From a virus, in the IMG/VR virus record IMGVR_UViG_3300032308_002246, positions 109,963-173,962 of that record: a stretch of 64,000 nucleotides of DNA, one strand, 5' to 3'. Within the stretch, counting starts at the first letter, position 1, and each line of letters opens with the position of its first letter. The translations under genes and the position numbers were made by a program. The notes beneath the pieces were generated by a model. That model made no database searches, was not told the DNA's origin, and was given only the letters and a program-made list of their open reading frames with translations. Positions 21,735 to 45,156 of the stretch are shown here, piece by piece.

Positions 21735-22322
21735 ATGAAGTACATCAACGTAAATGGCGTATGTGTTTACAGGAATGCAATTATCAATCCCTCTGAGATA
21801 ATAGAAGCCTCTGAGCTGTTAAGCATCTCGAAAGACAGCCGAGGCGATTGGACCAAATCGACAGTAATTGACACCGAGGGGAAGGTCTTTGTTTCTGAAG
21901 TAAGGACAAACCAGTTGATGTTCACCCCAACGCCAACTCAAAGGGGGGACGAGTCGTCGGCAGAGGTTATGCTGGCGAATAAAATTCACGAATATGTGAT
22001 TCCTTGTGTCCAAAACTTTGCGGCGAAATTTGGTCTTTCAATCAAGTTCCAATCTACAAACGGATATCAAATTCTCAAGTATTCAGTTAACGAACATTAC
22101 GTATCCCACCTTGATGATGGTGAAAAAACCAGACGGTACGCTTCTGCCGTTGCATACCTAAACGACGACTACGAAGGTGGCGAACTATATTTTCAGGATT
22201 TGAATTTCACATATCAGCCGGTAGCCGGGGATGTTGTAATTTTCCCATCTGGAGCACCATTTAGGCATGAGGCAAAACCCGTAATCAGCGGCATAAAGTA
22301 CTCAATAGCTAACTGGTGGTAA
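21735..22322 (+). CDS. 2OG/Fe(II) oxygenase 1, prolyl-4-hydroxylase-like
   Basis: 195 residues with the double-stranded beta-helix pattern. The iron ligands are His125-x-Asp127 (in VSHLDDGE) and His178 (FRHEAKPV), with Lys188 ten residues after the distal His. The core strand AYLNDDYEGGELYF is the P4H signature. Collagen prolyl-4-hydroxylase also uses Lys at His+10 to bind 2-oxoglutarate. The reaction would be Fe(II)/2OG-dependent hydroxylation with release of succinate and CO2. It is placed between fibre genes, just after the SPPPP adhesin, GNAT and zinc ribbon. The substrate is inferred only. Confidence 0.88.
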   Translation: MKYINVNGVCVYRNAIINPSEIIEASELLSISKDSRGDWTKSTVIDTEGKVFVSEVRTNQLMFTPTPTQRGDESSAEVMLANKIHEYVIPCVQNFAAKFGLSIKFQSTNGYQILKYSVNEHYVSHLDDGEKTRRYASAVAYLNDDYEGGELYFQDLNFTYQPVAGDVVIFPSGAPFRHEAKPVISGIKYSIANWW

Positions 22323-22384
22323 AAAGCCAGCGAAAACAACAGACTAGAGCCGATTAAAGACCGTCTTGTGAGATAATTAGCCGT

Positions 22385-22567
22385 ATGCCAATCGTCTTCC
22401 CACAATCGCCGTCAATAAATGACGAATTTTCTGTTGCAGGTAAATCTTGGAGCTGGAACGGGTTCCGTTGGCAAAGATTTAAATCTGCGATAATTGACGG
22501 CGGGTTTGCCAACATTGAAATAAATGTTTCAGACGACGAACTAATTGCTGACGGAGGCGATGCTTAA
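22385..22567 (+). CDS. Small fibre-associated protein
   Basis: 60 residues. FPQSPSINDEFSVAGKSWSW resembles the N-terminus of the fibre gene at 29775 (FPADAQSGDQHVSAGKTWTY), a short fold widespread at the ends of environmental phage fibres. TAA overlaps the ATG of the next, very long fibre gene by one base. It probably forms an attachment or cap piece of that fibre. Confidence 0.65.
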   Translation: MPIVFPQSPSINDEFSVAGKSWSWNGFRWQRFKSAIIDGGFANIEINVSDDELIADGGDA

Positions 22568-26694: not shown

Positions 26695-26710
26695 ATGACT
26701 GGAGCAATCA

Positions 26711-27016
26711 ATGGCTAATTCAGCTAAAGCACTATTTAGAGGCGCCGCTACGACAAATACAAGCACGACTCTTTACACCGTGCCATCCTCGACTACAACG
26801 ATAGTGACGAACATAATTGTCACAAATACGGCTGCAACGGATGGAACTTTTACGCTGTCGCTAGACGATGTTGCACTTGCATCTGCCGTAGTGGTTCCAG
26901 CAAAGGGTATTTTCACCCTTGACATCAAACAGGTTTTAGCTACAACAGAAACAATTAAGGGTGGCGCTAATGCCACCTCTATCAGCTTCCACATCAGTGG
27001 AATGGAGATTGCATAA
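26711..27016 (+). CDS. Small virion protein, beta-sandwich
   Basis: 101 residues, rich in Thr/Val/Ala with alternating hydrophobic strands: TTIVTNIIVTNTAATDGTFT, then LDIKQVLATTETIKGGANAT. It resembles small decoration-like beta proteins encoded among cyanophage-type fibre genes. GGAG precedes the ATG. Its TAA overlaps the next ATG by one base, indicating co-translation. Confidence 0.65.
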   Translation: MANSAKALFRGAATTNTSTTLYTVPSSTTTIVTNIIVTNTAATDGTFTLSLDDVALASAVVVPAKGIFTLDIKQVLATTETIKGGANATSISFHISGMEIA

Positions 27017-29772: not shown

Positions 29773-29774
29773 TC

Positions 29775-30554: not shown

Positions 30555-30557
30555 CTT

Positions 30558-31592
30558 ATGGCAGTTTCAAGCAACAACCAAATCGATTCTGGAGGTAAAG
30601 CCCCTTCAGCGCCAACGATTGGTACCCCACTGCTTGCAACAGGAACTTCAGCAAGCGTAGTTTTCACCCCATCGACATATATTGGTAAAGGCACAGTAAC
30701 CTACAGAGCCGCTGCAGACTCCGGTCAAACTGCTACTGGTAATAGCAGCCCAATTGTTATCACTGGGTTGACGCAGGGTTCAACAAGAACATTTACTGTT
30801 ACGGCTGTTTCGTCAAACGGAGTTGAAACATCTTCCGAAGTAAGTGCCTCGCTGGTTATGGGAGTTGGTCCATCTGCACCAACAATCGGAACAGCAGTCA
30901 TAGTTCAGAACGTGGACAGAGCAATTGATGTTCCGTACACCGCAGGAGCAACTGGGACAAACCCAACAGTAACCTATACGGCAACATCAAGTCCTAGTGG
31001 ATTAACCGCTACCGGTGCAAGCCCAATACGCATAACTGGACTCACGGCAGGAACCGCATACACATTTACGGTTTCAGCTTCTACGGAATTTGGAACTGCA
31101 ACTTCCGCCGCTTCCAACTCGGTGACAGCTGGAAATAGACCTGGTGCTCCGACTATTGGTACCGCTACTGGCGGAAACGCTCAAGCGACTGTCACATACA
31201 CCGCAGGAGCTGCTGGGACGGGCGCTACGACATTTACGGCCATTTCATCTCCAGGGAACGTTCAGGCCTCTGGAGCGTCTCCTATCACCGTTACAGGCCT
31301 CACCAACGGCCAAGCATACACTTTCACTGTAAGAGCAACCAACTCCTATGGATTTCAGACCTCTGGGTCTTCAAACTCCGTAACACCAGTTGCCCCTCCG
31401 TACTTCCCACCGTTCTTTCCGCCGTTTTTCCCACCTTACTTTCCGCCGTTTTTCCCACCATTTTTCCCTCCGTATTTCCCACCATTCTTTCCTCCTTTCT
31501 TTCCTCCTTATTTCCCACCCTTCTTCCCGCCTTTCTTTCCACCATTCTTTCCGCCATTCTTCCCGCCGTACTTCCCTCCGAGGTTCAAGTAG
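30558..31592 (+). CDS. Triple fibronectin-III adhesin ending in a PPYF/PPFF repeat tail
   Basis: 344 residues. Three fibronectin type III-like domains lie at about 15-100, 105-190 and 195-278, each ending in an xITGLTxGxxxTFTVxA strand. From residue 280 the protein is only sixteen Pro-Pro-aromatic-Phe tetrapeptides (PPYF or PPFF), closing with PPRFK. No phage family with this tail is known to me. The tail would form a stiff polyproline-like rod with an aromatic face. Directly downstream starts the peroxidase/oxygenase cluster, so the prolines are plausible substrates of the P4H-like enzymes; this is inference. Confidence 0.75.
   Translation: MAVSSNNQIDSGGKAPSAPTIGTPLLATGTSASVVFTPSTYIGKGTVTYRAAADSGQTATGNSSPIVITGLTQGSTRTFTVTAVSSNGVETSSEVSASLVMGVGPSAPTIGTAVIVQNVDRAIDVPYTAGATGTNPTVTYTATSSPSGLTATGASPIRITGLTAGTAYTFTVSASTEFGTATSAASNSVTAGNRPGAPTIGTATGGNAQATVTYTAGAAGTGATTFTAISSPGNVQASGASPITVTGLTNGQAYTFTVRATNSYGFQTSGSSNSVTPVAPPYFPPFFPPFFPPYFPPFFPPFFPPYFPPFFPPFFPPYFPPFFPPFFPPFFPPFFPPYFPPRFK
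31395..31586 (+). repeat. Sixteen-unit 12-bp coding repeat (PP-Y/F-F)
   Basis: Sixteen tandem 12-base units encode PP[Y/F]F (the last is PPRF). Tyr units occur at positions 1, 4, 7, 10 and 15, giving a 36-base higher-order period (PPYF-PPFF-PPFF) over the first ten units. Codons vary (CCT, CCG, CCA; TTC, TTT), so the array is not a fresh slippage product. Confidence 0.9.
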
Positions 31593-31595
31593 AAA

Positions 31596-32174
31596 ATGAA
31601 ATCAATTTATGACATTGACTTGAAGTCATGGGATGGCGAACGAGATGTCCTCAAAGACTGTGAAGGTAAAGTCACACTAATAATCAATACAACTGGTCAT
31701 TGTGGAAATGCGCCACAGTTTGGGATTATTGAGGGTCTTTACCAAAAGTACAAAGACCTTGGATTCAATGTTGTCGCTGTTCCTACAAATGACTTTTGCG
31801 GCAATGGAGTCACTTACGGAGAATACGCAGACGGCGTAAAAGATGCAAAGCACGCTCGAGATTATGGTGTCAATGAATGGAACGCTTCGTTTGATTTTTC
31901 GGAGCTAGTTGTATCTTGGCATGAAAAGCTAGAGGAAAAGCAAAATACCCCCCATGAGCTTTACCAAAATCTTATGACCAATGAGGAAAAAAGACTAAAG
32001 CAAGACATGACTGGGAACTTTGAAAAGTTTTTAATCAACAAAAAAGGAGAAAGAGTAGCAAGACTCACCAACGGTGTACTACTTGAATATGCGTACAATG
32101 ACGGTTATTGCGAGTCTCCAGAAGTTGAGCTTGAAAAACTATCTAAAATGATTGAAGACGAGTTGGCAAAATGA
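31596..32174 (+). CDS. Glutathione-peroxidase-like protein 1
   Basis: 192 residues with a thioredoxin fold of the GPx type. GKVTLIINTTGHCGNAPQFG (25-44) aligns with the GPx active-site block, giving peroxidatic Cys36. FNVVAVPTNDFCGN aligns with the NQF block, where Gln is replaced by Asp and an extra Cys68 could act as resolving Cys. NFEKFLINKKGERVAR matches the GPx C-terminal strand. It may reduce peroxides, or protect or regulate the Fe(II) enzymes encoded next to it. ATGA couples it to copy 2. Confidence 0.78.
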   Translation: MKSIYDIDLKSWDGERDVLKDCEGKVTLIINTTGHCGNAPQFGIIEGLYQKYKDLGFNVVAVPTNDFCGNGVTYGEYADGVKDAKHARDYGVNEWNASFDFSELVVSWHEKLEEKQNTPHELYQNLMTNEEKRLKQDMTGNFEKFLINKKGERVARLTNGVLLEYAYNDGYCESPEVELEKLSKMIEDELAK

Positions 32175-33064
32175 CGACAATTGACACATATCTAAAAGGT
32201 GACTACAAAAAAGCTTACGAAGTTATTCACCCCATTTCCCTTTATGACATCCCTATTGCTTCTGCGGATGGAAAAGTAACAGATTTATTTGCTGACAGAA
32301 AAGGCAAAGTAACGCTTATATTCAACTGTGCTGCTGGTTGCGGAAATATCCCACAGCACGGAGTTATTGAGCAGCTGAACCAGCGCTATGCAAATGAAAA
32401 AGACTTTGACATCATTGCAGTAGTTGTTGATGACTTTCAGTGCCACGGATACAAAGAATTCCAAGATGGGATTGCCTCGTACTGTCAAACAGTTGGCCTT
32501 GACATGTCGGTTGGTGAATTTGCCAAAAAGTATGCTGAGGAAAATTTTGGCACCACTTTTGAGTTCTCAGAACTCACAAATGCCAGATTTGACAAAGTTA
32601 CATATGAATCAGATTTTGCGCCAAATACGAGCATAAACCAAACACAAAATTCTCTTTGGTACTACCTAACCGAGGGCTATAAGGCAACAGTTAACAAACT
32701 TGGCATACCCTACACAGGAGAAGTTGTTCCTTGGTCAAACGGACAAGAGGAGTACCTAGGTGGAGATGCTACAAAAGCATTCCCAATAACAGGAAATTTT
32801 ACAAAATTTTTGATTGATAGAACCGGAACTAAAACAAAGCGATACTCCAACGGCTTTCTTCTTGGAGAGCGAGATGTTGATGGCGAAATTTATCCTTGGC
32901 TAAACGAAAAGCTTTTAGATGATGGCAAAAAAGACTGGAAACCGTTTACAGGCAAAAAAGAAAACGGTGAGCCATGGGTCGAACCAAGCGCCAAAGGACA
33001 AGGCGTTGAATTATCGCTTGATTTGATTAGCCGTGACATTGAAGATTACCTAGCTCAACAGTAA
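32171..33064 (+). CDS. Glutathione-peroxidase-like protein 2, extended
   Basis: 297 residues, longer than normal GPx (about 160-200). RKGKVTLIFNCAAGCGNIPQ places a Cys57 at the peroxidatic position. NFTKFLIDRTGTKTKRYSNG is the later conserved strand. A large insertion (about 95-205) lies between these blocks and has no recognised motif. It overlaps the preceding gene by four bases (ATGA). Peroxidase activity is likely but the insertion may change substrate or partner. Confidence 0.72.
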   Translation: MTTIDTYLKGDYKKAYEVIHPISLYDIPIASADGKVTDLFADRKGKVTLIFNCAAGCGNIPQHGVIEQLNQRYANEKDFDIIAVVVDDFQCHGYKEFQDGIASYCQTVGLDMSVGEFAKKYAEENFGTTFEFSELTNARFDKVTYESDFAPNTSINQTQNSLWYYLTEGYKATVNKLGIPYTGEVVPWSNGQEEYLGGDATKAFPITGNFTKFLIDRTGTKTKRYSNGFLLGERDVDGEIYPWLNEKLLDDGKKDWKPFTGKKENGEPWVEPSAKGQGVELSLDLISRDIEDYLAQQ

Positions 33065-33088
33065 TTAAAAACAATGTAGTCTGAGTAC

Positions 33089-33706
33089 ATGGAATCACCA
33101 TGGAAAATACAGCCTGGATTTTTTGGAACTGGTCCTGAAAACATTCATGTAATTAAGGATTTCATTGATAAAAAAGATGTTGAAACCATATCCTCATTTG
33201 CAAAAACCATAAATGAGTGGTCAAACGGCTCAGACGAAGACATCTTTGATGAAAACGGTGTATGCACTTATAGCGCTGCATACTGGAATGACAGGCAGTG
33301 TACTTGGGAAATTCTGCAAAGAATAAATAAAGATGTCTATGATTTGATTGATTTCTATTTAGACAAAATGGCTGTTACTGCAGGCGAAATTTTTGGATGC
33401 AAACTACAGAAACGACCCCCCTGCATTGTTAGATGGTTCAAGGGTATTGAACAACGTCCTCATGCTGACAAGCAAATGAACGATGGGTCCCCAAATCCTT
33501 TCCCCACATACGATATAAACTCGCTTTTCTACTGGAATAATGACTTTGAAGGTGGCGAGCTTTATTACCCACAGCACGATGTTGTCGTGAAGCCAGAGCC
33601 TGGGCTAGCCGTAATCCACCCCGGAGACATAAACTATCTACACGGTGTCAAGCTCGTTACGAGCGGGGAGCGATACACCTCTCCGGCATTCTTTACAGTG
33701 GAGTGA
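33089..33706 (+). CDS. 2OG/Fe(II) oxygenase 2
   Basis: 205 residues. Predicted ligands are His125-x-Asp127 (RPHADKQ) and His185 (YLHGVKLV), with Arg195 at His+10 for 2-oxoglutarate. The strand WNNDFEGGELYYP is the P4H-type core. An N-terminal helical cap covers about residues 15-100. It opens the run of oxygenase genes and is followed two bases later by another. The substrate is unknown. Confidence 0.87.
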   Translation: MESPWKIQPGFFGTGPENIHVIKDFIDKKDVETISSFAKTINEWSNGSDEDIFDENGVCTYSAAYWNDRQCTWEILQRINKDVYDLIDFYLDKMAVTAGEIFGCKLQKRPPCIVRWFKGIEQRPHADKQMNDGSPNPFPTYDINSLFYWNNDFEGGELYYPQHDVVVKPEPGLAVIHPGDINYLHGVKLVTSGERYTSPAFFTVE

Positions 33707-33707
33707 C

Positions 33708-34370
33708 ATGGGACAAGAACCGCGTTTTATAAATACTCCAAGAATTGGATTGTTTGTTGATTACTTGCCAAAAGAAGAATGGGAAGTAGTAAAAGAATAC
33801 TGCGAAAACAATGAGGCAAAATTTGAGTTCGTTGGGCACAATCCTGAAATTGGATGGAAAAAGAAAACACACTCACGTCACCCAGAGATAACTTTTCAAA
33901 CATCTTTTCTCCCAACCAAAGAGGAAATTGACTCCGGTGGTTACATGACCAATGGCGATAACTACAAGATTTCCATGCATGAACCAGCAGACGAGCAGGT
34001 TAAAAAAATATTGCTATGGATGTTGATAAATGTTAGAGACACAATAAAAACAACCTACGGCAATAAAACATACTTTGAAAGCGGCCCATGGTTGTCAATG
34101 GCCAAAGAAGGCGACAACATGGGGTTGCACTGCGATGGCGTGTTTCTGGACAAAGTTGGAGCTGTTACTGATTTTTCATGCGTTTACTATGTGAACGACG
34201 AATATGAAGGCGGAGAAATTTACATGCCAATTCTTGGCGTAGCTATTAAACCTAAAGCCAATTCTCTTCTAATTTGGTCTCACACTTGGCATGAAGACAT
34301 GGCTCACGGAGTTAGGCCAATCATTTCTGGAACTCGTTATATGTCGCAAGGGTTCTTTACCACTGTATAG
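33708..34370 (+). CDS. 2OG/Fe(II) oxygenase 3
   Basis: 220 residues. ATG 33708 with GGAG just upstream is preferred; earlier in-frame starts lie inside the preceding gene. The ligands are His141-x-Asp143 (GLHCDGV) and His200 (MAHGVRPI), with Arg210 for 2OG. The core strand is VNDEYEGGEIYMP. The N-terminal 130 residues differ from those of its neighbours, suggesting another substrate. It is part of a co-directional set with spacing of 1-10 bases. Confidence 0.87.
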   Translation: MGQEPRFINTPRIGLFVDYLPKEEWEVVKEYCENNEAKFEFVGHNPEIGWKKKTHSRHPEITFQTSFLPTKEEIDSGGYMTNGDNYKISMHEPADEQVKKILLWMLINVRDTIKTTYGNKTYFESGPWLSMAKEGDNMGLHCDGVFLDKVGAVTDFSCVYYVNDEYEGGEIYMPILGVAIKPKANSLLIWSHTWHEDMAHGVRPIISGTRYMSQGFFTTV

Positions 34371-34379
34371 ACTGTTGGC

Positions 34380-35045
34380 ATGAAAACAGAAATACTTAGT
34401 GACCCGCGCCTTGGGGTTCTTGTATACAAGAATGCACTGCCTAAAGAACTGGACATCATAAATAGGCTTGAGTCAACTATCGGAGACAGCACGACGATGC
34501 CTTTCATGTGGTGCGAGGCTCTTGTTGGTTATTCACAAAAGATGCCAGAGTATCGAGACTGTGTTGACTGCAAAATTGGACAGGTCCACATGGACCATCT
34601 GCACCATTACCCACAGTTCGCAGAGCTAAAGAACATTTACAACGACACGGCGAATGCAATCCGCGCATGCATGAATGATTATCAAAGCCGCTACAACATA
34701 AATATGGAGTATATGGAGGCAATTAACTTCGTTCGATACGGAGCGAATCAGCACTTCCAGGTCCACACTGACCACGGGTTTTCTTATACTTGCACAGTTT
34801 CTTCTGTCGTCTACTTCAATGACGACTATGAAGGCGGTGAGCTCTGGTTCCCTTACCTAGATTTGACATTCAAACCAGAAACTGGGGACATAGTGATGTT
34901 CCCGTCAACATTTATTTATGCACATGCTGCAAAACCAGTTACCAGCGGCGTTAAGTACTCTGGAGTAACGATGTTTGATTACAACGACAGGAATCACGAC
35001 ATCAAGGGAAGCTACGACGGAGTAAAGGCTCCAGCTGCTCAGTAG
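34380..35045 (+). CDS. 2OG/Fe(II) oxygenase 4, Lys-type
   Basis: 221 residues. The ligands are His129-x-Asp131 (QVHTDHG) and His182 (YAHAAKPV). The 2OG anchor is Lys192, as in collagen prolyl-4-hydroxylase and in oxygenase 1, not Arg as in most neighbours. The core is FNDDYEGGELWFP. Residues 45-77 contain a Cys/His-rich stretch (CVDCKIGQVHMDHLHH) that could bind a second metal. TAG overlaps the next GTG by one base. Confidence 0.87.
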   Translation: MKTEILSDPRLGVLVYKNALPKELDIINRLESTIGDSTTMPFMWCEALVGYSQKMPEYRDCVDCKIGQVHMDHLHHYPQFAELKNIYNDTANAIRACMNDYQSRYNINMEYMEAINFVRYGANQHFQVHTDHGFSYTCTVSSVVYFNDDYEGGELWFPYLDLTFKPETGDIVMFPSTFIYAHAAKPVTSGVKYSGVTMFDYNDRNHDIKGSYDGVKAPAAQ

Positions 35046-35593
35046 TGGCTGTTGTAGGCATCTACTCTCCGGGGGCTATGGGTTCTACCCTTGCTTATTC
35101 CTGTTCTGTAAATGGCCACAAAACAATATGGGCATCAGAGGGTCGTTCTGAAAAAACATTAATCCGTGCAAAAAAATTTGGCATAGAAGATGTCGTTTCA
35201 CTTGAAAACCTTTTGGGAAAAAGCGATTTTATATTCTCGATTGCCAGCAACTTTGACGCATTTGAATTTGCTCGTGTTATTGCATCAATGAGTTTCAAAG
35301 GAATCTATGTTGACTTCAATACCATGTATACAGATACCGACGGAACCGAACTTGAGAACATACTCACCCCAAATAAAATAAAGTACGTTGAAGGCGCACT
35401 TCGTGGCTGGCCAGTAAAAGAACCAGGAGAAGAAATAACCAGCGAGAAAACAATGTATCTATCTGGTCTACATGCGAATACAGTAAAAGAACTATTTGGA
35501 AATTTTTGGAGAATAAGAACCATGCCCAAATCAGCAAAATTGTTAAACCGAGTACTTGCAGAGGAGTTGGCGATTATCTATGGTCAAGGTTAA
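35045..35593 (+). CDS. Truncated NAD(P)-binding dehydrogenase (6PGDH/HIBDH-like Rossmann domain)
   Basis: 182 residues. VGIYSPGAMGSTLAYSCSVN gives a GxxxPGxMG dinucleotide loop like that of 6-phosphogluconate/3-hydroxyisobutyrate dehydrogenases. Asp-rich strands follow (KSDFIFSIAS, GIYVDFNTMY). Family enzymes are about 290-300 residues with a C-terminal helical catalytic/dimerisation domain. Here only the Rossmann half and a short tail remain. It may work with a partner or serve as a cofactor-binding protein. The GTG start overlaps the previous stop. Confidence 0.72.
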   Translation: MAVVGIYSPGAMGSTLAYSCSVNGHKTIWASEGRSEKTLIRAKKFGIEDVVSLENLLGKSDFIFSIASNFDAFEFARVIASMSFKGIYVDFNTMYTDTDGTELENILTPNKIKYVEGALRGWPVKEPGEEITSEKTMYLSGLHANTVKELFGNFWRIRTMPKSAKLLNRVLAEELAIIYGQG

Positions 35594-36284
35594 TCTAAAG
35601 AGAACATACGATAATCCACCAGAAATAAGACAGTCACGAATAAACCGTGACTGGATGGATGAAACATATAAAAAGCACGCATACCAGTGCTTGCCAATGA
35701 CTTTTGCAAATGTATACGGATGGGAGCTAGTGCTCCCGCAGACAGTTATTGCTCAATGGGACGGCGGCAACACTGTTCCTACGATTCTTGAGGGCGAATC
35801 ATACGGTGGCAGACAGTTGGCCTACGGCGGAATAATAGGCATGGTTTCATTCTCTACAGGGTGGATTTTTGGGACAGACACTGGATACGAAACATTTATT
35901 GGTGGCTCACCCAACTATGTTAGAGAAGATGCACAGGCACTATCCGCAATCATTCCGAGTAGCTGGTGGCCAGATGAGTTCCAAATGAACTGGAAGATAA
36001 ACAAAGTAGGAGAACCAGTTGTTTTTGAAGCCGGTATGCCTTTTATGTTTTTTTCAATATTTGAAAGCAATGTATTAGAAAATGTAGATTTCACTGTTGA
36101 TAACCTTTGGGATGATAAAGAGCTAATGGATTCTCGACAAAAATACGGTGACTTGAAAATGAAGAACAATCAAGAGCAGCCATGGACCTGGACAAAAGGC
36201 ATAAAAACAGGACTTGATGCTGACGGCAACAAGATTGGTCCAACATTTACAGGGATGCCAAAACTGCAAATTCCAGGACAATAA
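35580..36284 (+). CDS. DUF6065-like protein
   Basis: 234 residues. ATG 35580 overlaps the end of the dehydrogenase gene by 14 bases. It contains HAYQCLPMTFANVYGWELVL, FSTGWIFGTDTGYETFIGG and GEPVVFEAGMPFMFFSIFES. These match my memory of the DUF6065 family, found in biosynthetic clusters and phages beside 2OG oxygenases; function unknown. No signal or membrane segment is seen. It sits between a dehydrogenase and an oxygenase, suggesting a shared modification task. Confidence 0.68.
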   Translation: MVKVNLKRTYDNPPEIRQSRINRDWMDETYKKHAYQCLPMTFANVYGWELVLPQTVIAQWDGGNTVPTILEGESYGGRQLAYGGIIGMVSFSTGWIFGTDTGYETFIGGSPNYVREDAQALSAIIPSSWWPDEFQMNWKINKVGEPVVFEAGMPFMFFSIFESNVLENVDFTVDNLWDDKELMDSRQKYGDLKMKNNQEQPWTWTKGIKTGLDADGNKIGPTFTGMPKLQIPGQ

Positions 36285-36286
36285 CA

Positions 36287-36904
36287 ATGTCAATGCTTGA
36301 CTATAAAAATCTACTGCTTAAAAACATACATGTTATTGATAATTTTGCAACTGGTGAAGAATTATCAAAAATTCTTGATAGGTGTTATGAATTCTCAGAA
36401 TGGGACAACACCTGGCAGGAGTATGTAGGCGGTCAGGGATATACCGAAAGACCAGATTGCCAAGAAAGAAAAGACGTATCTTCTAGGGCATTGTCTTTGG
36501 TTTCCGCAACAGTCGGCAGGAGATTGTGTTTTCTTTATGAACCATACCTAAGAAAATACCCACCTGGCTCTTATCTAAAAATGCATGCGGATGCAGAGGG
36601 TTATTATGGAAGCAATCCAGAACCACTGAAAAACTACGACCCCACAAACCAAATGTCAGAAGTTCTAAATGAATGTTCATCAATTCTTTACCTGAATGAA
36701 GACTACGAAGGTGGAGAATTGTACTTTGAAGAATTTGACATGTTGATTAAACCCAAAGCCAATCAGCTGGTTTTCTTTCCAAGTGGCTCCGAATTTAGAC
36801 ATGAAGTGAAGCCGGTAATTAGTGGTGATAGATACACACTTGCGTCTTTTTATACGACTGATAAGCTGGTTGGCCTTCACGAGAAAATACGAGAACTTAT
36901 ATGA
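36287..36904 (+). CDS. 2OG/Fe(II) oxygenase 5, prolyl-4-hydroxylase-like
   Basis: 205 residues. The ligands are His100-x-Asp102 (LKMHADAEG) and His172 (FRHEVKPV), with Arg182 at His+10. The core is LNEDYEGGELYF. Around the distal His it is close to oxygenase 1 (RHEVKPVISG against RHEAKPVISG) but with Arg replacing Lys. The end (LVGLHEKIRELI) overlaps the next ATG (ATGA). Confidence 0.88.
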   Translation: MSMLDYKNLLLKNIHVIDNFATGEELSKILDRCYEFSEWDNTWQEYVGGQGYTERPDCQERKDVSSRALSLVSATVGRRLCFLYEPYLRKYPPGSYLKMHADAEGYYGSNPEPLKNYDPTNQMSEVLNECSSILYLNEDYEGGELYFEEFDMLIKPKANQLVFFPSGSEFRHEVKPVISGDRYTLASFYTTDKLVGLHEKIRELI

Positions 36905-37116: not shown

Positions 37117-37297
37117 GCCACAGGATTTTAAAATGAGCACCAGAAAAGGTGAAGCCATAACAGACACCGAAGAGTGGGATAACGAGATTATTGAATGGGA
37201 CCCAAGCACTGGTGTTTACTATGTTGCTGGTAAGCCGGTATCAATGTGTCAGGGTGTAGCAATGTTTGATGTTAAGGATAATGATGAGCAAGTATGA
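37109..37297 (+). CDS. Small acidic hypothetical protein
   Basis: 62 residues, strongly acidic (DTEEWDNEIIEWDPSTG). It overlaps the preceding gene by 8 bases and the next by 14. There is no recognised motif. The tight packing and good codon phase argue that it is real, but nothing shows its function. Confidence 0.55.
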   Translation: MDEPQDFKMSTRKGEAITDTEEWDNEIIEWDPSTGVYYVAGKPVSMCQGVAMFDVKDNDEQV

Positions 37298-37565
37298 CCC
37301 TGTTGCTGATTTAGAGTATCGCTCCGAGCAGCTAGCAGCATATCTATTCATTCTTGGATTTGATGAATCACGCTTTGACGAGGTCACGATTGACGACTGT
37401 ATTAATGCGATTAGAGATAGGTACCGCTACGACCATGACACGGAAATCGATTCAGATGTAAAAGACTACATAAAAAGACAGAACATTACACTTACAAGAA
37501 ATGTCCGTCGTGCTTGGTTTGATGTACAAGTAGCATTGCATGAGGTGCAAAATGGAACAAAGTAA
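37284..37565 (+). CDS. Hypothetical helical protein
   Basis: 93 residues. ATG 37284 is chosen because AAGGA at 37274-37278 gives normal spacing; ATG 37281 is possible. It contains EQLAAYLFILGFDESRF and CINAIRDRYRYDHDTE, and is predicted helical. It overlaps the following gene by 14 bases. No family was recognised. Confidence 0.58.
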   Translation: MSKYDPVADLEYRSEQLAAYLFILGFDESRFDEVTIDDCINAIRDRYRYDHDTEIDSDVKDYIKRQNITLTRNVRRAWFDVQVALHEVQNGTK

Positions 37566-38286
37566 AAGATACGAACCAGAGGTTTCTTTTGACTTCAGTT
37601 CACTGCAGTTTGACTGGGAACAATATGCAGACCAGTGCAACCGCGAGGATGGTGGGCATTCTGTTGCTATAGCTGAATATCTTTTTAACAAGGTTGGCAT
37701 TGATAGGAGAAACATTGCCACAGGTGGAGCAAGCGACTACGAGTTTGTAGTTCACTACCCAAGACCAAACCTGTCAAGTGCTTATGGTCAAGCTCAATGG
37801 ATGTCCATCCTCATGATTCTCGGCATCATGGATATATCCAAAAAGAAAAATGTATTGGCAGTTTCTGGTGGTTTAGATAGATTTAGGCTGAAGGTGTTCA
37901 AGTCGCTACACGGCGCAAACATCACATTTCTGAATAACAAAAAACTTAGTTTGTACGAAAAATTCCAAGACCCTATTGACGACTACAACGTTGTAACTAT
38001 GCAGGATTTTGAGAAACACCCAAACAACAAGTACGACATGATGCTTTCGTGGTCTCAGGACATGGAGAATCCACTGATTCCAATAAGTTCTTTTGTAGAC
38101 AGACTTGAAGACAATGGAATTCTGATAATTCAAAACACATCTGACAGCATGTTTTTATACAACAATCACACCAAAGCAACACCAATTTGGGGATATCACG
38201 AAGCTCTTAAAAATATTGGCGGCTGCAGTGTCTACCATATTCCAGTTTTTTACGGAATCACAATCGTTGTAAAGAGCGCAACATGA
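37552..38286 (+). CDS. Putative class I methyltransferase-like protein
   Basis: 244 residues. ATG 37552 follows GAGGTG. KKKNVLAVSGGLDRFRLKVF resembles the strand-loop-helix of a Rossmann-like nucleotide-binding core, although the usual GxGxG is reduced to SGG. Later strands (KYDMMLSWSQDMENP, DNGILIIQNTS, HIPVFYGITIVVK) follow the order of SAM-dependent methyltransferases. This is a fold guess. It lies inside the oxygenase cluster and overlaps oxygenase 6 by ATGA. Confidence 0.5.
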   Translation: MEQSKRYEPEVSFDFSSLQFDWEQYADQCNREDGGHSVAIAEYLFNKVGIDRRNIATGGASDYEFVVHYPRPNLSSAYGQAQWMSILMILGIMDISKKKNVLAVSGGLDRFRLKVFKSLHGANITFLNNKKLSLYEKFQDPIDDYNVVTMQDFEKHPNNKYDMMLSWSQDMENPLIPISSFVDRLEDNGILIIQNTSDSMFLYNNHTKATPIWGYHEALKNIGGCSVYHIPVFYGITIVVKSAT

Positions 38287-38957
38287 TTATAAAAGATAAT
38301 GCACTAGCTGATTCTTTATATCAAGAACTGCTATCAGATGATGCTTTTTTCCCTGAGTCAATGGGTTCTGACGAGAGATTAGCAACAGAGCTCAATTCAT
38401 ATCACTACGAAAAATCTAGTTGTTTTGCTCCCTATATGTTTTGGGATGGATGGTGGGCAACCCCAGCAAACACATTGAGGAAGAAAGTTGTTCAAGCAAT
38501 TTGGGAAGACAACCTCCCATGCGATACAAGCGAAATACTTGGAATCGAGTATTGGACAAGAACTTATCTACCTGGCCAGTATCTGGATGTGCATGTTGAT
38601 GAGGATACATTTCTTTATCAGGAATCAAAAACATTTAGCGGTCCGTTGACAGGCTCAATACTCTACGGAGTAGATAATGACAATGGTGGTTTTGTAGAAA
38701 TATACAACAAAGCAGTTTTGAAAGATGGAGAAAAATTAGCTATTGAAGCAGAAAGCATAAACTCTTTGTTGGTTCCGGTAGAAGAGCGAGAGAGAATAGC
38801 CTACAAAGGGAACCGTGTAATTATTTTTGATACCGGCCATGTGGTTCATGGAACAACTCCAGCAAAGAGTGGAATCAGGCAAGTAATGGTAACAAATGTA
38901 TGGCATCGCAACAATCCCCCAACAGCTCTAAAGTTGGGAGAATTTTTTTATGAGTGA
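38283..38957 (+). CDS. 2OG/Fe(II) oxygenase 6
   Basis: 224 residues. The ligands are His104-x-Asp106 (LDVHVDEDT) and His189 (HVVHGTTPA), with Arg199 at His+10. The usual EGGE strand is replaced by DNDNGGFVEIY, and there is an insertion of about 30 residues before the distal His, so it belongs to a different branch from its neighbours. It overlaps the genes on both sides (ATGA and 8 bases). Confidence 0.82.
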   Translation: MIIKDNALADSLYQELLSDDAFFPESMGSDERLATELNSYHYEKSSCFAPYMFWDGWWATPANTLRKKVVQAIWEDNLPCDTSEILGIEYWTRTYLPGQYLDVHVDEDTFLYQESKTFSGPLTGSILYGVDNDNGGFVEIYNKAVLKDGEKLAIEAESINSLLVPVEERERIAYKGNRVIIFDTGHVVHGTTPAKSGIRQVMVTNVWHRNNPPTALKLGEFFYE

Positions 38958-39852
38958 TGTTAAAAAGGTAAACCTTTTATCAATTGACATATTTAAAACA
39001 AAAATTAATGACATTGACAACCAGCGGCTGTTGCAAGAGATTTTAAAATCAACCAATGATATTGATGATTCATTTATTGAAAATAAATATCATACTTATT
39101 ATGAAGACAAAAGGTATCCGTTTGGTTCTGCTGAGTCGGAAAAACTAATAAACAAGTTGGCAGAAGCAGTTTCTGGTTCTTTAAACAAAGAAATGGTGCT
39201 TAGTAGCATTTGGACACTAACTCTTGGTTATGGACAGTCGGTATCTGCTCACTCGCATAAATCAAACACTCACCTTCGTCCAGAAGAGTACTTTTCAATT
39301 GCCTATTACCCAAGCGCCCCCAAGGGAAGCGCAGACTTGATATTTATGGTTAATGCCGGAAACACTATAGAAAAGTCTGTTGAACTAACACCGGAAACTG
39401 GTGACCTAATTATTTTCAACTCTTATTTAATGCATATGACCAATAGGCACGGCAATAAAGAAGAACCTCGAGTCGTTATAAGCGCAAATTTTTCTCCGAA
39501 ATACCCGAATTCAACACCAACTCAGGATTGGAGCGCTTACGCAAGACACCCAGAGGACAGTGAAATTATCTACGATAAACGTTACTCATTAACGATACGT
39601 ACTCCCTTTGGCAAGGAAGATGCAACACTTGGAATCAAAGGTGATATTGCGGAAATATTTAATCCAACCGGAAAATACTTTATAGAAAAATTTATTGAAA
39701 CAGAAGATTCATTCAGTTCTGAATTTTCTGTTGATGTGCCAATGGTTACCACTGTTAGTATTCAGTTGTCGTTTACTGAAAACAGGGCCATTGAGGGCTC
39801 TATTTTTATTGGTGAATTTGCTAAATACCATGTGAGTGGGGTGGTGTTGTGA
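38950..39852 (+). CDS. 2OG/Fe(II) oxygenase 7 (2OG-FeII_Oxy_5-like)
   Basis: 300 residues. SVSAHSHKSNTHLRPEEYFS provides His101/His103, and ETGDLIIFNSYLMHMTN with PRVVISANF gives the distal His162 and Arg174. This order (His motif, short strand, G-D-L-I-I-F-x-S, His, Arg-x-x-I-S) is the hallmark of the putative 2OG oxygenase family common in T4-like and marine phages. About 110 residues follow as a beta-rich C-terminal domain. The proximal Asp is not clear, so activity is less certain than for the others. Confidence 0.7.
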   Translation: MSDVKKVNLLSIDIFKTKINDIDNQRLLQEILKSTNDIDDSFIENKYHTYYEDKRYPFGSAESEKLINKLAEAVSGSLNKEMVLSSIWTLTLGYGQSVSAHSHKSNTHLRPEEYFSIAYYPSAPKGSADLIFMVNAGNTIEKSVELTPETGDLIIFNSYLMHMTNRHGNKEEPRVVISANFSPKYPNSTPTQDWSAYARHPEDSEIIYDKRYSLTIRTPFGKEDATLGIKGDIAEIFNPTGKYFIEKFIETEDSFSSEFSVDVPMVTTVSIQLSFTENRAIEGSIFIGEFAKYHVSGVVL

Positions 39853-40460
39853 GCGAGTCTATTTACAACATCCCAATAAATTCAATTGACGGAGATAAAG
39901 ATATGCTATCAGGCCTCAATGGAATGGTTACATTGTTCTTCCCTTTTGCTTCAAAAGCTGGGTATGAGCCAAAATGCAGCCGTGTTTGGTCTTATGCTAG
40001 AACTTCCAGAAAGCTCTGGGAGATGCAAAAGCTGCACGAAATGTTTGAAAACTTCTCTGTTGTTGGGGTACCAACAAATCAGTTTTGGAACATGGAGCCT
40101 TTGGAAAATGAACAGATATCAAAATTTATAAAAGAAACATACCCATTCGTCAAGTTTCCAATTACTGAAAAAGTGGTTATAAACGGAGATGACGAGCATG
40201 CAATCTGTTCGCATATGAAGGGTTATACCAAGCGACTTGTTGACGACACAAAAGCTGGTAACAGCTTTGCTGCATCACAGGGTCAAAATCTTGCTGGTGG
40301 AGCTGTACACAAAATACCCGCTTATTACGAAAAGTTTGTAGTCAGCAAAGAAGGTCGACAGGTCTACAGATTTGGGTTTGCTACTAAACCCTTGGCAGAC
40401 AGGGTTGAAACCACTGACATGGATATGACTGTAATTCAGGCAGTACAATCATTACTATGA
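39849..40460 (+). CDS. Glutathione-peroxidase-like protein 3, catalytic Cys missing
   Basis: 203 residues starting at GTG. The GPx framework is clear: PFASKAGYEPK aligns with the active-site ASKCG block, VVGVPTNQF with the NQF block, and FVKFPITEKVVINGD with the FPxxxKxxVNG strand. FEKFVVSKEGRQVYRF closes the fold. The peroxidatic Cys is replaced by Ala37; Cys43 lies six residues later. It is probably inactive as a classical peroxidase and may bind a partner or use another Cys. Confidence 0.75.
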   Translation: MSESIYNIPINSIDGDKDMLSGLNGMVTLFFPFASKAGYEPKCSRVWSYARTSRKLWEMQKLHEMFENFSVVGVPTNQFWNMEPLENEQISKFIKETYPFVKFPITEKVVINGDDEHAICSHMKGYTKRLVDDTKAGNSFAASQGQNLAGGAVHKIPAYYEKFVVSKEGRQVYRFGFATKPLADRVETTDMDMTVIQAVQSLL

Positions 40461-41317
40461 GCGATTTCAACTTCAAACCAGAGCATCTTGGTGGCGGAAC
40501 AGTAATTTTTAAGGATGCAATTAATGTTCCACAAAAAGAGGCATTTGAACATCTTGACCGGATGAAAGATGAAGCATTCAGTAACTCATACACAATCGTT
40601 AAGAATGAAGAAGGTAATCCACTCCACGCAATAAACAAAGGCGGGTTCATATATGACCTTGAAGATATGGATAGAGCTCCAATACGAATTGGCAACTTGG
40701 ATATTCCATTCTTTCAAGAATGTGAAAAAGCAATTTACGGTGCCCTACTTCGCTACATCGAGATGTTTCCAGCTGTACTGCAGTGCCTTTGGTGGAAGAG
40801 CCCTGGCCATGTTTTGCGTTATGCCAAGAGCGGTGGACTTGGTTTTCATGCAGACAATGATGTCAACTATAGATATGGGAGAGAACCCAAAGAGCAACAC
40901 GCAACCAGAAATGTGTTATCAGCTCTCGTGTATCTAAACGACTGCACCGATGATGAATCTATTGAGTACTCATTTTCCGGAGGTCACATGACGATTCCAT
41001 ACTTTGATATTGACCTAGCTCCATCAACTGGGGCAATAGTTCTTATGCCTGCAAACTATATTGGCGCTCATCAAATCCACGAAGTAACTAGGGGTGTTAG
41101 ATATTCATACTTGACATGGTTTGCTCAAGGCTCCGAAGACCCAGAACGCGGGTGTTCTCCGGCTCACCCAGAAGAGACCATGTTCCAGAACAACGGGCAA
41201 TGGTGGCTTCCATCAATTCTCAAGGATTACGAAAACTACATAATTGAAAAGTACGGTTCTTTGTTAAATGCCCCACAGGAAAAAGTAGATTACCTGAGCA
41301 GGGCCAACGACCACTAA
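40457..41317 (+). CDS. 2OG/Fe(II) oxygenase 8 (LGGG subfamily)
   Basis: 286 residues. It is the first of four related long oxygenases that begin with a HLGGGxxxF or similar strand. The ligands are His131-x-Asp133 (GFHADND) and His205 (GAHQIHEV), with Arg215 at His+10. An insertion YRYGREPKEQHATRN after the first His motif and a C-terminal extension of about 60 residues distinguish the subfamily. Its stop overlaps the stop of a minus-strand gene by four bases. Confidence 0.86.
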   Translation: MSDFNFKPEHLGGGTVIFKDAINVPQKEAFEHLDRMKDEAFSNSYTIVKNEEGNPLHAINKGGFIYDLEDMDRAPIRIGNLDIPFFQECEKAIYGALLRYIEMFPAVLQCLWWKSPGHVLRYAKSGGLGFHADNDVNYRYGREPKEQHATRNVLSALVYLNDCTDDESIEYSFSGGHMTIPYFDIDLAPSTGAIVLMPANYIGAHQIHEVTRGVRYSYLTWFAQGSEDPERGCSPAHPEETMFQNNGQWWLPSILKDYENYIIEKYGSLLNAPQEKVDYLSRANDH

Positions 41318-41637
41318 ATCTTTTTTGTAAACATCTTTTCAGTTACAAATAAATGCTTTGCAAGAGTACTTGATGAGTGAATTATCCCAAGTGGATTTGG
41401 AACATTAAATTCGTTGAGGATGTCTGCCATCTTCCCGTTTGCAATGTCATCCCAAAAAGCCATCATTGCTTCCGCTCCAGTGCGGCCAGCTATGTAGTAT
41501 TTTTCTTCAATTTGACCCGGGAGAACATTGTCTGCCCAGTGGTTGTAACCATCTTTTTCTACCATGTTTGGCAGCTTGGCAAACTCCTGGACCATAATTT
41601 CTGTCCACCGATTGAATGCGTCGTTCTTTTCGCTCAT
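41314..41637 (-). CDS. Hypothetical protein on the minus strand within the oxygenase cluster
   Basis: 107 residues with ATG at 41637, just 18 bases from the divergent ATG at 41656. The sequence is helical (FNRWTEIMVQEFAKLPNM, GAEAMMAFWDDIANGKMADI) with no recognised family. A longer upstream frame would run into the oxygenase and is rejected. It is the only minus-strand gene between 20.9 and 43.2 kb, so it may be an insertion into the cluster or separately regulated. Confidence 0.68.
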   Translation of the reverse strand: MSEKNDAFNRWTEIMVQEFAKLPNMVEKDGYNHWADNVLPGQIEEKYYIAGRTGAEAMMAFWDDIANGKMADILNEFNVPNPLGIIHSSSTLAKHLFVTEKMFTKKI

Positions 41638-41655
41638 TCGGCTATCATACACCGT

Positions 41656-42528
41656 ATGAATCAAGAGCATAAGTTCAACGATGTAGAGCCACATCACCTC
41701 GGTGGTGGGGTTGTCGTTTTCCGTGGAGCTATTTCATTTGATAACAAATGGGCAAGCTCCTTTGCTGAGAAGCAGGTATCCAAAGAACGTTCTCAGATGT
41801 ACGACGAGGCGGTAGACCCAGAGACGGGGGAGCCCGCATTTATAAACAGGAGCGGGTATTACTTTGATGCTGAGGGAATGAACCAGATGCCTCGACGTGG
41901 TTCACAAATACACATGGATGCGGATGAAGAAGTTAGAGGTTTCTTGGATTTTATTGAGAAATCAAAAGACTCATATCTCCTGAAGTACTTTTACCTTTTC
42001 CCTCTGGCATACAAAAATGTTTGGTGGAAAGTAAAGGGGCATCTTGTCTCGTACTCCGTTGAAAACGGCGGAAAGTTTTTGGGCCCACACTCCGACACGA
42101 GTGCTGACTATGCTTACGGTTTCCCCCATCCGCACGACCAGCTAGCTACTAGAAACACAATCTCATGCATTGTTTATCTAAATGATGATTTTGAGGGCGG
42201 ACATCACTACTTCAATTATCTTGAAATTGACTATAAGCCTTCTGCTGGTGACATTTTGATGTTTCCATCAAACTACATGGCAGCTCATGAAGTAAAGGAA
42301 ACAACGGGTGGAAGTCGATACACATATCTTGGTTGGTATTCGCACGGCACGCCAAATAAAGAGGTCAATGAGCATATAGTTGACCCAGTTGAGTTTCCAG
42401 AAATGGCAAAAACTGCAACCAATGTTTATATGCCAACGCTTCGTTATGATTTTGCCGAATACCTTAACAAAGTTGACCCAGGCAAAACATCATTTGGGCA
42501 CAGTCTGGTAGAAAGTATGCACTCATGA
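41656..42528 (+). CDS. 2OG/Fe(II) oxygenase 9 (LGGG subfamily)
   Basis: 290 residues. ATG 41656 is chosen because the sequence from there (MNQEHKFNDVEPHHLGGGVV) aligns with oxygenase 8; the longer frame reads through the minus-strand gene. The ligands are His145-x-Asp147 (GPHSDTS) and His211 (AAHEVKET), with Arg221. The core is LNDDFEGGHHYF. The insertion YGFPHPHDQLATRN matches that of oxygenase 8. It overlaps oxygenase 10 by ATGA. Confidence 0.87.
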   Translation: MNQEHKFNDVEPHHLGGGVVVFRGAISFDNKWASSFAEKQVSKERSQMYDEAVDPETGEPAFINRSGYYFDAEGMNQMPRRGSQIHMDADEEVRGFLDFIEKSKDSYLLKYFYLFPLAYKNVWWKVKGHLVSYSVENGGKFLGPHSDTSADYAYGFPHPHDQLATRNTISCIVYLNDDFEGGHHYFNYLEIDYKPSAGDILMFPSNYMAAHEVKETTGGSRYTYLGWYSHGTPNKEVNEHIVDPVEFPEMAKTATNVYMPTLRYDFAEYLNKVDPGKTSFGHSLVESMHS

Positions 42529-43259
42529 TAGTAAAACATCTTGGGAATGGAATAATGCTTTTTGAAGATGTATTAGACACATCCCCCCTTGAGTCGTATC
42601 TTGAAAGAATTTTTGCAGAAAATTCAAGCGCTACAAACGGAGTCAATATTGACTCATCTCAAAATGACGGTGGATACACCGTACAGGAAGCTCATATTTC
42701 AGAATTACCAATTAGGTTTCACGGACTCTCCGGTAGTTCTGAATTTACAAAAGACGTCACAAAATCAATTGATGATGCGTTGTACAAGTGCTTAGTTGAG
42801 TACTGTCGAGTTTTCCCTTTAGCAATTGACTGTATAAAGTGGAGAACTAGCGGCCAGATTGCATCTTACTCGGTAGGGCAGAACATTGGCCCACATAGCG
42901 ACTGCGCGCTTCCGTATGATGCCGATGGCAATGTTTTAAACTCATTCCCTCTTCACAACACTCTTACTGGCTCAATGGTTTTAAGTGAAAATCACGAGGG
43001 TGGAGCAATAAAATTTAGACCCTGGGGGATAACTTCAAATCCAAAAATTGGCTCAGTTTTGATTTACCCATCATCTTTCATGGGTTGTCATGAAGTTGAG
43101 CAAGTAACTTCTGGTGTTAGAAATGTTTATCTGCAGTGGTTCTGTCAAGGAAAACCAGAGATGCAAATTTTAGAAAATAACAAATTGGACAATCTTGCAA
43201 CCGACGCAAAAAACTGCGGACAAGGCTATGTTCATGTTGGAATTATTCAACAGAATTAA
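42525..43259 (+). CDS. 2OG/Fe(II) oxygenase 10 (LGGG subfamily)
   Basis: 244 residues, beginning MIVKHLGNGIMLFEDVLDTS. The ligands are His124-x-Asp126 (GPHSDCA) and His189 (GCHEVEQV), with Arg199. The core strand is changed to SENHEGGAIKF. The end WFCQG corresponds to WFAQG and FFSQG in its relatives. It converges with oxygenase 11; the two stop codons share the bases TTAA. Confidence 0.86.
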   Translation: MIVKHLGNGIMLFEDVLDTSPLESYLERIFAENSSATNGVNIDSSQNDGGYTVQEAHISELPIRFHGLSGSSEFTKDVTKSIDDALYKCLVEYCRVFPLAIDCIKWRTSGQIASYSVGQNIGPHSDCALPYDADGNVLNSFPLHNTLTGSMVLSENHEGGAIKFRPWGITSNPKIGSVLIYPSSFMGCHEVEQVTSGVRNVYLQWFCQGKPEMQILENNKLDNLATDAKNCGQGYVHVGIIQQN

Positions 43260-44326
43260 TACAAACTGTTGTGTTCTTTGCCGCGTTGCTCGTTATCGTA
43301 TACCACCTGAGAATGTGAGTAGGCTTTCTTTAGACCGTTTTCACCCTCAAGTGTTCTATTTTGGTAAACAGGGTTTGCCTTAAACATCCCGTTTGCGTCT
43401 TTTGCCGCATCGCCATTTCCCATGAATTCAGTTTTTAGGCAGTAATACTTGTAGTCATCGTACAGGTTGTCTATGAAGTGTGGTCTACACCATCCATCGT
43501 TGTCTTCAGGTTCAGAAATGTTGATTCCTACGTCGTCATGACTGCTTCCTTGACTAAAGAATTCAAGGTACCCATACCGGACACCCTTCTTTACTGGTTC
43601 AACACCGTGGGTGGCCATAAAGTTTGCTGGGAAAATAACCACATCACCAGTCTTTGGGACATTCTTTATTCCCAAGTAAGGGAATACAAGCTCTCCTCCG
43701 GTGTAGTTTTCTCCGTTTAGCTCTGATTCGTCTTCTACGCAGTCATTGAGATAGAGCATTACTGCTAGCACTTGGCGCATTTGTATTTGTCCGCGTGGAA
43801 CAAAACGCTCGCCGTTTGTTGCTCTGTAATTTGAGTCGTTGTCGTTGTGTATTCCAAGGAAAGCACCCTCGTCGTATCTCATGGCGTGACCCTTTGTGCG
43901 CCACCATATTGTTCCCAAAACCATAGGGAATTCATCAACATATCTAAGAAGACACTTGTAAATCATGTCTTCCCAGTACCTGAATACCTCAATCATTTCT
44001 GGTTTTGTTTCAGAGTTGACCACTTCAAGAAGTCTTACTGGGACCATCTGGACTTGTTCTGGCGAAAACTTATTACCGTCTTCATTAATGGCGTATAGAT
44101 TTCCCTCTTCGTCATGGTCCCATGTCCAGCGCTGTTCATGAGCTGATTTTGAATGTTCGTCAATGTACGGAAGAAGCGTACTTCTATCAATGTTTACTAC
44201 GCCGGGGAACCTGAGTACGCCGCCACCGAGGTCTTCGTATGGCATGTTAAAGATTTCAGAGACAGCTTCGTTGTTACGGACATCAGGTGTGGTTCCGTAA
44301 AATCTGTTGTCTTTTATCTTTTCCAT
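43256..44326 (-). CDS. 2OG/Fe(II) oxygenase 11 (LGGG subfamily)
   Basis: 356 residues. ATG 44326 lies two bases after the upstream stop; an earlier TTG at 44341 is rejected. The LGGGVLRF motif, His160-x-Asp162 (GIHNDND), His240 (ATHGVEPV) and Arg250 define the enzyme. A loop near FVPRGQIQMRQVLAV parallels the ATRN insert of oxygenases 8 and 9. A C-terminal extension of about 100 residues, with a Tyr/Lys-rich end, is unique. It is the longest of the twelve. Confidence 0.86.
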   Translation of the reverse strand: MEKIKDNRFYGTTPDVRNNEAVSEIFNMPYEDLGGGVLRFPGVVNIDRSTLLPYIDEHSKSAHEQRWTWDHDEEGNLYAINEDGNKFSPEQVQMVPVRLLEVVNSETKPEMIEVFRYWEDMIYKCLLRYVDEFPMVLGTIWWRTKGHAMRYDEGAFLGIHNDNDSNYRATNGERFVPRGQIQMRQVLAVMLYLNDCVEDESELNGENYTGGELVFPYLGIKNVPKTGDVVIFPANFMATHGVEPVKKGVRYGYLEFFSQGSSHDDVGINISEPEDNDGWCRPHFIDNLYDDYKYYCLKTEFMGNGDAAKDANGMFKANPVYQNRTLEGENGLKKAYSHSQVVYDNEQRGKEHNSLY

Positions 44327-44328
44327 AG

Positions 44329-44946
44329 CTACTCTCGCCAAAATTGAATCAAACTGAATCTAGCACCTGCAGTCACTTCCGTAATTCCATGGTAGTTCAA
44401 GTCAGCGTTGAATATAAGTGCTTCTCCAGCTTTGAGTTTGATGTCTATGTCAATATTGGGGTTCTCCATCGTCCCCGTCAAATAGAACTGCGTGTGGCCG
44501 CCTTCGTAATCGTCGTTTAAGCATATAGCCGACGAGTAGAGAATCCTGCCCATGCCGTAATCGCCATCTCCACCGTCCGTATGAACCTTGTGGGATTGAC
44601 CAGTAGTTTGGCTTTTAATCGTGAAGCCTGGGTTTGGGAAAAACGGAACATCCAAGTTTATTCCTGTTTTAAGCATGTACTCGCTGGTTAGTCTTCTGTA
44701 TACCGCAGAGAGTATTGAAGCAAGCTTAAAGCCCCCAACGCTCGAAGAATTGCTCATTAAGTAGGTGGGAAAAATGTTGCGCTCATCACTGGAAGGACTT
44801 TTATATTCCAGCGAGTTTACAGAACTCATAATTTTTGATAAGAGTCGACCACTTATTAGTTGTCCTAGGTAAATTCCAGAACCATTTGGGCCTATTTCTT
44901 TCAACATTTCTACATTATCCGTCTTTACCACTTTCCAAGCGGGCAT
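44329..44946 (-). CDS. 2OG/Fe(II) oxygenase 12
   Basis: 205 residues if started at ATG 44946, which overlaps the end of the zinc-ribbon gene by 22 bases. The ligands are His122-x-Asp124 (KVHTDGGDG) and His186 (NYHGITEV), with Arg196. The core is LNDDYEGGHTQFY. An N-terminal helical domain of about 100 residues precedes the core. The overlap with the zinc ribbon indicates coupled expression, repeating the zinc-ribbon/oxygenase neighbourhood at 21.5 kb. Confidence 0.85.
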   Translation of the reverse strand: MPAWKVVKTDNVEMLKEIGPNGSGIYLGQLISGRLLSKIMSSVNSLEYKSPSSDERNIFPTYLMSNSSSVGGFKLASILSAVYRRLTSEYMLKTGINLDVPFFPNPGFTIKSQTTGQSHKVHTDGGDGDYGMGRILYSSAICLNDDYEGGHTQFYLTGTMENPNIDIDIKLKAGEALIFNADLNYHGITEVTAGARFSLIQFWRE

Positions 44947-45152: not shown

Positions 45153-45156
45153 TTTT

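Follow-up and report, generated by a model that had tools for sequence, protein, structure and literature searches.

Why would a tailed phage carry a dozen 2-oxoglutarate (2OG)/Fe(II) oxygenase genes, and what would the enzymes act on? The question is raised by a 64,000-nucleotide stretch of viral DNA (hereafter the window), bases 109963-173962 of the 173,962-base IMG/VR virus record IMGVR_UViG_3300032308_002246. In a compact layout, eleven of the oxygenase genes lie within ~12 kb, behind a tail-fibre gene whose product ends in an aromatic-proline repeat (XFPP, where X is F, Y, H or W), and this linkage of repeat and oxygenases recurs in many virus lineages. We consider it probable that the locus is a virion-fibre modification cassette, in which prolyl 4-hydroxylase (P4H)-like enzymes hydroxylate the aromatic-proline repeats at the fibre tips.

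Twelve oxygenase genes and a proline-repeat fibre

A preliminary description had listed twelve oxygenase open reading frames (ORFs) in the window. All twelve exist and were correctly placed, and all match 2OG/Fe(II) oxygenase families in Pfam. We refer to them as ox1 to ox12; the fibre gene is listed first.

30558..31592, plus strand: proposed substrate, FN3-type tail-fibre protein of 344 aa (fn3, 44.5 bits)
21735..22322, plus strand: ox1, 2OG oxygenase (PF13640, 57.3 bits)
33089..33706, plus strand: ox2, 2OG oxygenase, leading candidate for prolyl hydroxylation of the XFPP repeat (profile, AlphaFold2, Foldseek)
33708..34370, plus strand: ox3, 2OG oxygenase (PF13640, 38.1 bits; HxD, H and +10 R)
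34380..35045, plus strand: ox4, 2OG oxygenase (PF13640, 48.0 bits; similar ORFs in 22 of 44 repeat-locus groups)
36287..36904, plus strand: ox5, 2OG oxygenase (PF13640, 51.9 bits)
38283..38957, plus strand: ox6, 2OG oxygenase (PF13640, 23.7 bits, below cut-off; HxD, H and +10 R)
38950..39852, plus strand: ox7, PF13759-type 2OG oxygenase without HxD (29.8 bits)
40457..41317, plus strand: ox8, 2OG oxygenase, paralogue of ox11 (PF13640, 38.1 bits)
41656..42528, plus strand: ox9, 2OG oxygenase (PF13640, 51.0 bits)
42525..43259, plus strand: ox10, 2OG oxygenase (PF13640, 32.5 bits)
43256..44341, minus strand: ox11, 2OG oxygenase (PF13640, 44.1 bits)
44329..44946, minus strand: ox12, 2OG oxygenase (PF13640, 37.3 bits; weak Tet_JBP, 20.5 bits)

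PF13640 is matched by 11 of the 12 ORFs, nine of them above the 27-bit cut-off (32-57 bits) and two, ox2 (25.0 bits) and ox6, just under it; ox7 matches PF13759 instead, above the cut-off of that family. The same 11 carry HxD, a distal His and Arg/Lys at His+10, ox7 lacking HxD as had been described. The proposal of at least three subfamilies is borne out in part, by two Pfam families. Detectable pairs among the cluster oxygenases are ~30-50% identical, mostly over short stretches. For the ORFs at 41656, 44326 and 44946 the ORF caller takes upstream GTG/TTG starts. Outside the window, the genome has one more PF13640 gene, its thirteenth oxygenase (35122-35412).

The fibre gene sits directly upstream of the main oxygenase run. 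From residue 280, its C-terminus (~65 residues) consists of 15 [FY]FPP units and ends ...YFPPRFK. Across loci the units are position-specific (F, Y, H or W, then FPP) and use mixed synonymous codons; codons vary freely between units, and therefore it is the protein sequence, not the DNA, that is conserved. This is not a Gly-X-Y collagen repeat, since the unit is [FYHW]FPP and holds no Gly. The repeat gene is present in 7/7 cluster-bearing records searched and absent from 19/19 records of the terminase lineage without the large cluster, contigs of 84-138 kb among them; the reversed pattern gave no match in this search. As in tail fibres, fn3 domains are found in the repeat proteins, several of which have a Peptidase_S74 or Hint-like domain at their end; the FN3 part of the present protein had no match in named phages. 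Hint/intein-like domains follow the aromatic-Pro repeats directly, as weak matches, at L177 and L217, and are recognizable by motif at L148, L165, L191, L204, L210, L216, L218, L223 and L238. The Hint-like domains suggest self-cleavage or attachment of the fibre tip.

The strongest candidate for a repeat-modifying enzyme is ox2. Searched against the PDB, its family profile matched prolyl 3-hydroxylase 1 (P3H1; 1.9e-8) and a bacterial P4H (1.3e-6), and its AlphaFold model, the only one made among the twelve oxygenases, has a confidence score (pLDDT) of 93. Foldseek placed PHD2, PBCV-1 vCPH, P3H1 and Cr-P4H-1 at the top, so that, on the predicted model, the closest structural relatives of ox2 are prolyl hydroxylases. 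The double-stranded beta-helix core that had been proposed is borne out by modelled fold for ox2 and by profile for the other eleven. The metal triad and 2OG-binding Arg (H125, D127, H185, R195) are invariant in 44/44 ox2 homologues, and 203 of 217 repeat-adjacent oxygenases retain the full HxD...H+10R/K motif. ORFs resembling ox2 occur in 19 of 44 repeat-locus groups.

The cluster is present in six other IMG/VR contigs. Five of these (G001-G005) have largely the same gene order, mostly at 60-97% identity, and the more distant G006 (25-55%) is rearranged. The ratio of nonsynonymous to synonymous substitution rates (dN/dS) is 0.01-0.14 wherever dS is computable, with synonymous sites often saturated and the proteins mostly 60-97% identical. 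The cluster is under purifying selection, and decay of the enzymes is very unlikely because the constraint is this strong; the catalytic motifs and dN/dS together rule out chance or broken genes. A chimeric assembly, against which the preliminary description had cautioned, is excluded by synteny in the other contigs and by the closed contig ends. What did not hold up is the claim of an exceptional number. T4-like cyanophages usually have 1-5 2OG genes (PMC9602691; PMC3037559), and 24 have been reported for the Synechococcus phage S-SCSM1 (PMC9602691); among the present relatives, G002, G004 and G005 have 14-15 matches each with the same model. What sets the present cluster apart is compactness, not gene number.

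The record as a whole is a contractile-tail phage genome encoding a sheath, a terminase and a major head protein. An exact 123-bp direct repeat at both ends is consistent with a closed contig, i.e., a complete circular or terminally redundant genome, and contains a tRNA-Thr(TGT) gene (window 63878-63950 and genome 1-73). The terminase is nearest to those of Gordonia phages, at ~43% identity, which is insufficient to name the host. Two giant ORFs lie outside the window, both on the minus strand (genome 50217-66254, 5345 aa; 85085-94657, 3190 aa).

Recurrence of the repeat-oxygenase linkage

We scanned a viral contig collection with a DNA pattern for FFPP[FY]FPPFFPP and obtained at least 120 stretches, 110 of them in frame. 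Loci with PTPTPT repeats, found in the same way, served as a control (n=115) that was not habitat-matched. Among the matches listed, a 2OG gene is no more than 4 kb away at 70 of 110 repeat loci, vs 5 of 115 controls (Fisher 3e-23), and the difference persists among loci with at least 3 kb on both sides (24/29 vs 3/28). Fragmentary contigs limit claims of absence. Where no 2OG gene was nearby but the contig was longer, PF13640 was found in the record in 13 of 16 cases, vs 3 of 31 for the controls. Of the 70 loci, 69 have their nearest 2OG gene downstream of the repeat gene, and in 55 the two genes share a strand. Grouped by shared proteins, the loci form 44 groups, 25 of which have a 2OG gene within 4 kb.

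A matched control was drawn from relatives of another fibre gene (46917-48107), chosen regardless of repeat or oxygenase. In this family a 2OG gene accompanies 15 of 18 fibres with strict XFPP repeats vs 18 of 59 without them (p = 1e-4). Six exceptions were inspected, and three have variant C-terminal tips, with FFxPP and FGPSF repeats, directly upstream of oxygenases. Such variants, ending in FK and just upstream of 2OG genes, were seen at L562 (5500-5913), L572 (8626-9006) and L556 (8571-9413). With a broader aromatic-Pro definition, set after these variants had been seen, the counts become 23/26 with the repeat vs 10/51 without (p = 1e-8). In the reciprocal direction, where both flanks extend for 5 kb or more, the repeat was found in 33/34 loci fetched with DUF6065 and 27/27 fetched with ox2; for PTPT controls the count was 0/120. 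The queries derive from repeat-bearing loci and are thus biased towards agreement. Cellular genomes yielded 12 matching contigs with about four true repeats, all on contigs of metagenome-assembled genomes (MAGs), and the three MAGs from which these come carry DUF6065.

Literature searches on the repeat, on DUF6065 and on prolyl hydroxylation in phage tails, with most subscription journals and all bioRxiv preprints outside their reach, returned nothing relevant; the repeat and its module appear new in the publications searched.

Partner genes and a second fibre block

Interleaved with the oxygenases are three GPx/thioredoxin-fold genes, one dehydrogenase-like gene and a DUF6065 gene, and a second fibre lies upstream.

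31596..32174, plus strand: GPx/thioredoxin-fold protein 1 (phrog_5295), Cys36 at the peroxidatic position (GSHPx, 44.1 bits)
32171..33064, plus strand: GPx-like protein 2 (phrog_5295), Cys57 (GSHPx, 25.2 bits, below cut-off)
39849..40460, plus strand: GPx-like protein 3, without the usual peroxidatic Cys (GSHPx, 52.7 bits)
35045..35593, plus strand: NAD-binding beta-hydroxyacid-dehydrogenase-like protein (PF02826, below cut-off)
35583..36284, plus strand: DUF6065 protein, a conserved companion of repeat and oxygenases (PF19541, 147.8 bits)
37540..38286, plus strand: conserved cluster protein, no family match above cut-off, kept in G001, G003 and G005
19949..20911, plus strand: second Pro-rich fibre with FN3, SPPPP repeats and a Cys-rich tip (fn3, 63.2 bits)
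20948..21478, plus strand: GNAT acetyltransferase, flanked by the second fibre and ox1 (PF00583, 27.7 bits)

Among the matches listed, DUF6065 occurs in 53 of 110 XFPP loci vs 1 of 115 controls, and every locus that has it also has an oxygenase. It is rare in one bacterial class (2/274 genomes, including the one to which the repeat contig belongs). Its AlphaFold2 model (pLDDT 87) has a dUTPase-like beta fold (best E 8e-5), a match of fold only at ~8-16% identity, and from this model a binding or scaffold role may be proposed. The protein at 37540..38286 possibly has a Rossmann/methyltransferase fold, judged by eye only.

The window further encodes a 4Fe-4S ferredoxin (55196-55441; PF13459, 64 bits), a possible electron donor, and a small DUF6171 zinc-ribbon-like protein that adjoins ox12 (44928-45206, minus strand). 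A small Cys-rich family resembling the latter, with homology judged by eye, is found near XFPP repeats in 7 locus groups. In related phages, FAD-binding ORFs, tryptophan-halogenase-like by N-terminal motif only, were seen near 2OG genes in G006 (20893-22365), G015 (124422-125903) and G018 (46165-47670).

The second Pro-rich fibre (19949..20911) is a possible second substrate. Its tip differs among relatives, with SPPPP here, poly-Pro in G003 (59927-60973) and PTPTPT in G004 (12286-13248), each followed by a Cys-rich end. Judging by gene order, the block of FN3-SPPPP fibre, GNAT and ox1 (19949-22322) and the minus-strand pair ox12/ox11 may each be a fibre-linked set of its own, and this would go some way to accounting for so many enzymes.

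What the enzymes may act on

In the cassette that we propose, the gene at 30558 would supply a tail-fibre subunit with a probably exposed ([FYHW]FPP)n C-terminus, and the P4H/P3H-like oxygenases encoded downstream, with ox2 and ox4 as prime candidates, would hydroxylate the repeat during virion maturation. By analogy with established P4H/P3H chemistry, Fe(II), O2 and 2OG would be used on repeat residues, most likely proline. The remaining oxygenases may target Phe/Tyr or other fibres, and DUF6065 and the GPx-like proteins could be helpers, as a scaffold, in disulfide chemistry or in redox protection. The fibre would then probably end in an adhesive tip that bears hydroxyl groups and is stiffened in a polyproline-II-like form, or in a platform to which other groups are added, with a possible effect on adsorption. 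The dedicated hydroxylation programme envisaged in the preliminary description gains support, for virion proteins, from the position of oxygenase genes behind fibre genes with proline-rich tips and from the linkage in many lineages.

Several points weigh against this reading. Eleven enzymes are not obviously needed for one repeat. The loci are non-independent, though they are more than one phage counted repeatedly. With strict XFPP and only fibre-family loci longer than 12 kb, significance is lost; the strongest p-value is that of the broader, post hoc definition, and even there 2OG genes stand beside 10 of 51 fibres of the matched family without a clear aromatic-Pro repeat. Oxygenases are also spread throughout cyanophage genomes, and ~199 kb of S-SCSM1 yielded no XFPP repeat.

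In a rival explanation, the enzymes modify other virion or host proteins, or nucleic acid, and the repeat gene is a mere neighbour in a variable, cargo-collecting tail-fibre region. Tail-fibre regions are indeed variable, S-SCSM1 oxygenases adjoin fibres without XFPP, and two enzymes have weak Tet_JBP matches. We nevertheless regard it as unlikely: 2OG genes are far fewer at PTPT-repeat loci and beside same-family fibres without aromatic-Pro repeats, the gene order is fixed, and DUF6065 follows the repeat-oxygenase pair. A DNA-modification programme as such was rejected, the Tet_JBP matches being weak and below cut-off.

Less probable still is a small-molecule or capsule/polysaccharide pathway, in which a metabolite or surface glycan would be built or modified by the oxygenases together with the dehydrogenase-like, GPx-like and other enzymes. 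Cyanophage clusters that combine 2OG enzymes with halogenases and carbamoyltransferases have been interpreted in this way (PMC7824862), and NAD-binding and GPx-like genes are present here; however, among the cluster ORFs scanned no gene for a carbamoyltransferase, an assembly line or sugar nucleotides was identified, the gene conserved beside the oxygenases encodes a structural protein with repeats, and the enzyme next to it is similar to peptidyl-prolyl hydroxylases. Consumption of 2OG to influence nitrogen signalling and the supply of succinate in the host, as suggested for cyanophages (PMC3037559), is very improbable here, since one enzyme would suffice and the tail-fibre linkage, fixed downstream order and enzyme diversity would be left unexplained.

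Fibre modification thus remains our preferred reading. More tentatively, the aromatic-proline (XFPP/FFxPP) repeats may represent a widespread, undescribed phage tail-tip polymer, matured by a multi-enzyme hydroxylation line with DUF6065 and comparable to collagen or extensin. If so, phages would gain a eukaryote-like repertoire of hydroxylated structural repeats. The function of phage 2OG oxygenases is usually explained via host metabolism; here a candidate substrate is encoded in the same cluster, in many lineages, so that mass spectrometry could test that function directly. The repeats are almost devoid of trypsin sites and would therefore tend to escape routine virion proteomics.

Among known systems, S-SCSM1 is likewise a myovirus with many 2OG genes, of which two small groups adjoin fibres, but they are mostly dispersed and the 199 kb read contain no XFPP repeat (PMC9602691). 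The cyanophage clusters also combine several 2OG enzymes, but with carbamoyltransferases and a halogenase, and are read as secondary metabolism or capsule decoration (PMC7824862). Mimivirus, also a large virus, pairs a repeat protein with enzymes of its own that modify it; there the repeat is collagen rather than aromatic-Pro, the modification is hydroxylysine glycosylation and the host is eukaryotic (PMC9546862). P3H1, EGLN/PHD and Chlamydomonas P4H-1 share the fold and active-site residues of ox2, P3H1 being its best profile match, but are eukaryotic, recognize other substrate motifs and are 13-19% identical to ox2 in the Foldseek alignments. PBCV-1 vCPH (PDB 5c5t), second in the Foldseek ranking, is like ox2 a virus-encoded enzyme of P4H fold; its annotation is that of a collagen prolyl hydroxylase, and the virus infects algae, whereas the present locus belongs to a tailed phage and joins a dozen enzymes to aromatic-Pro repeats.
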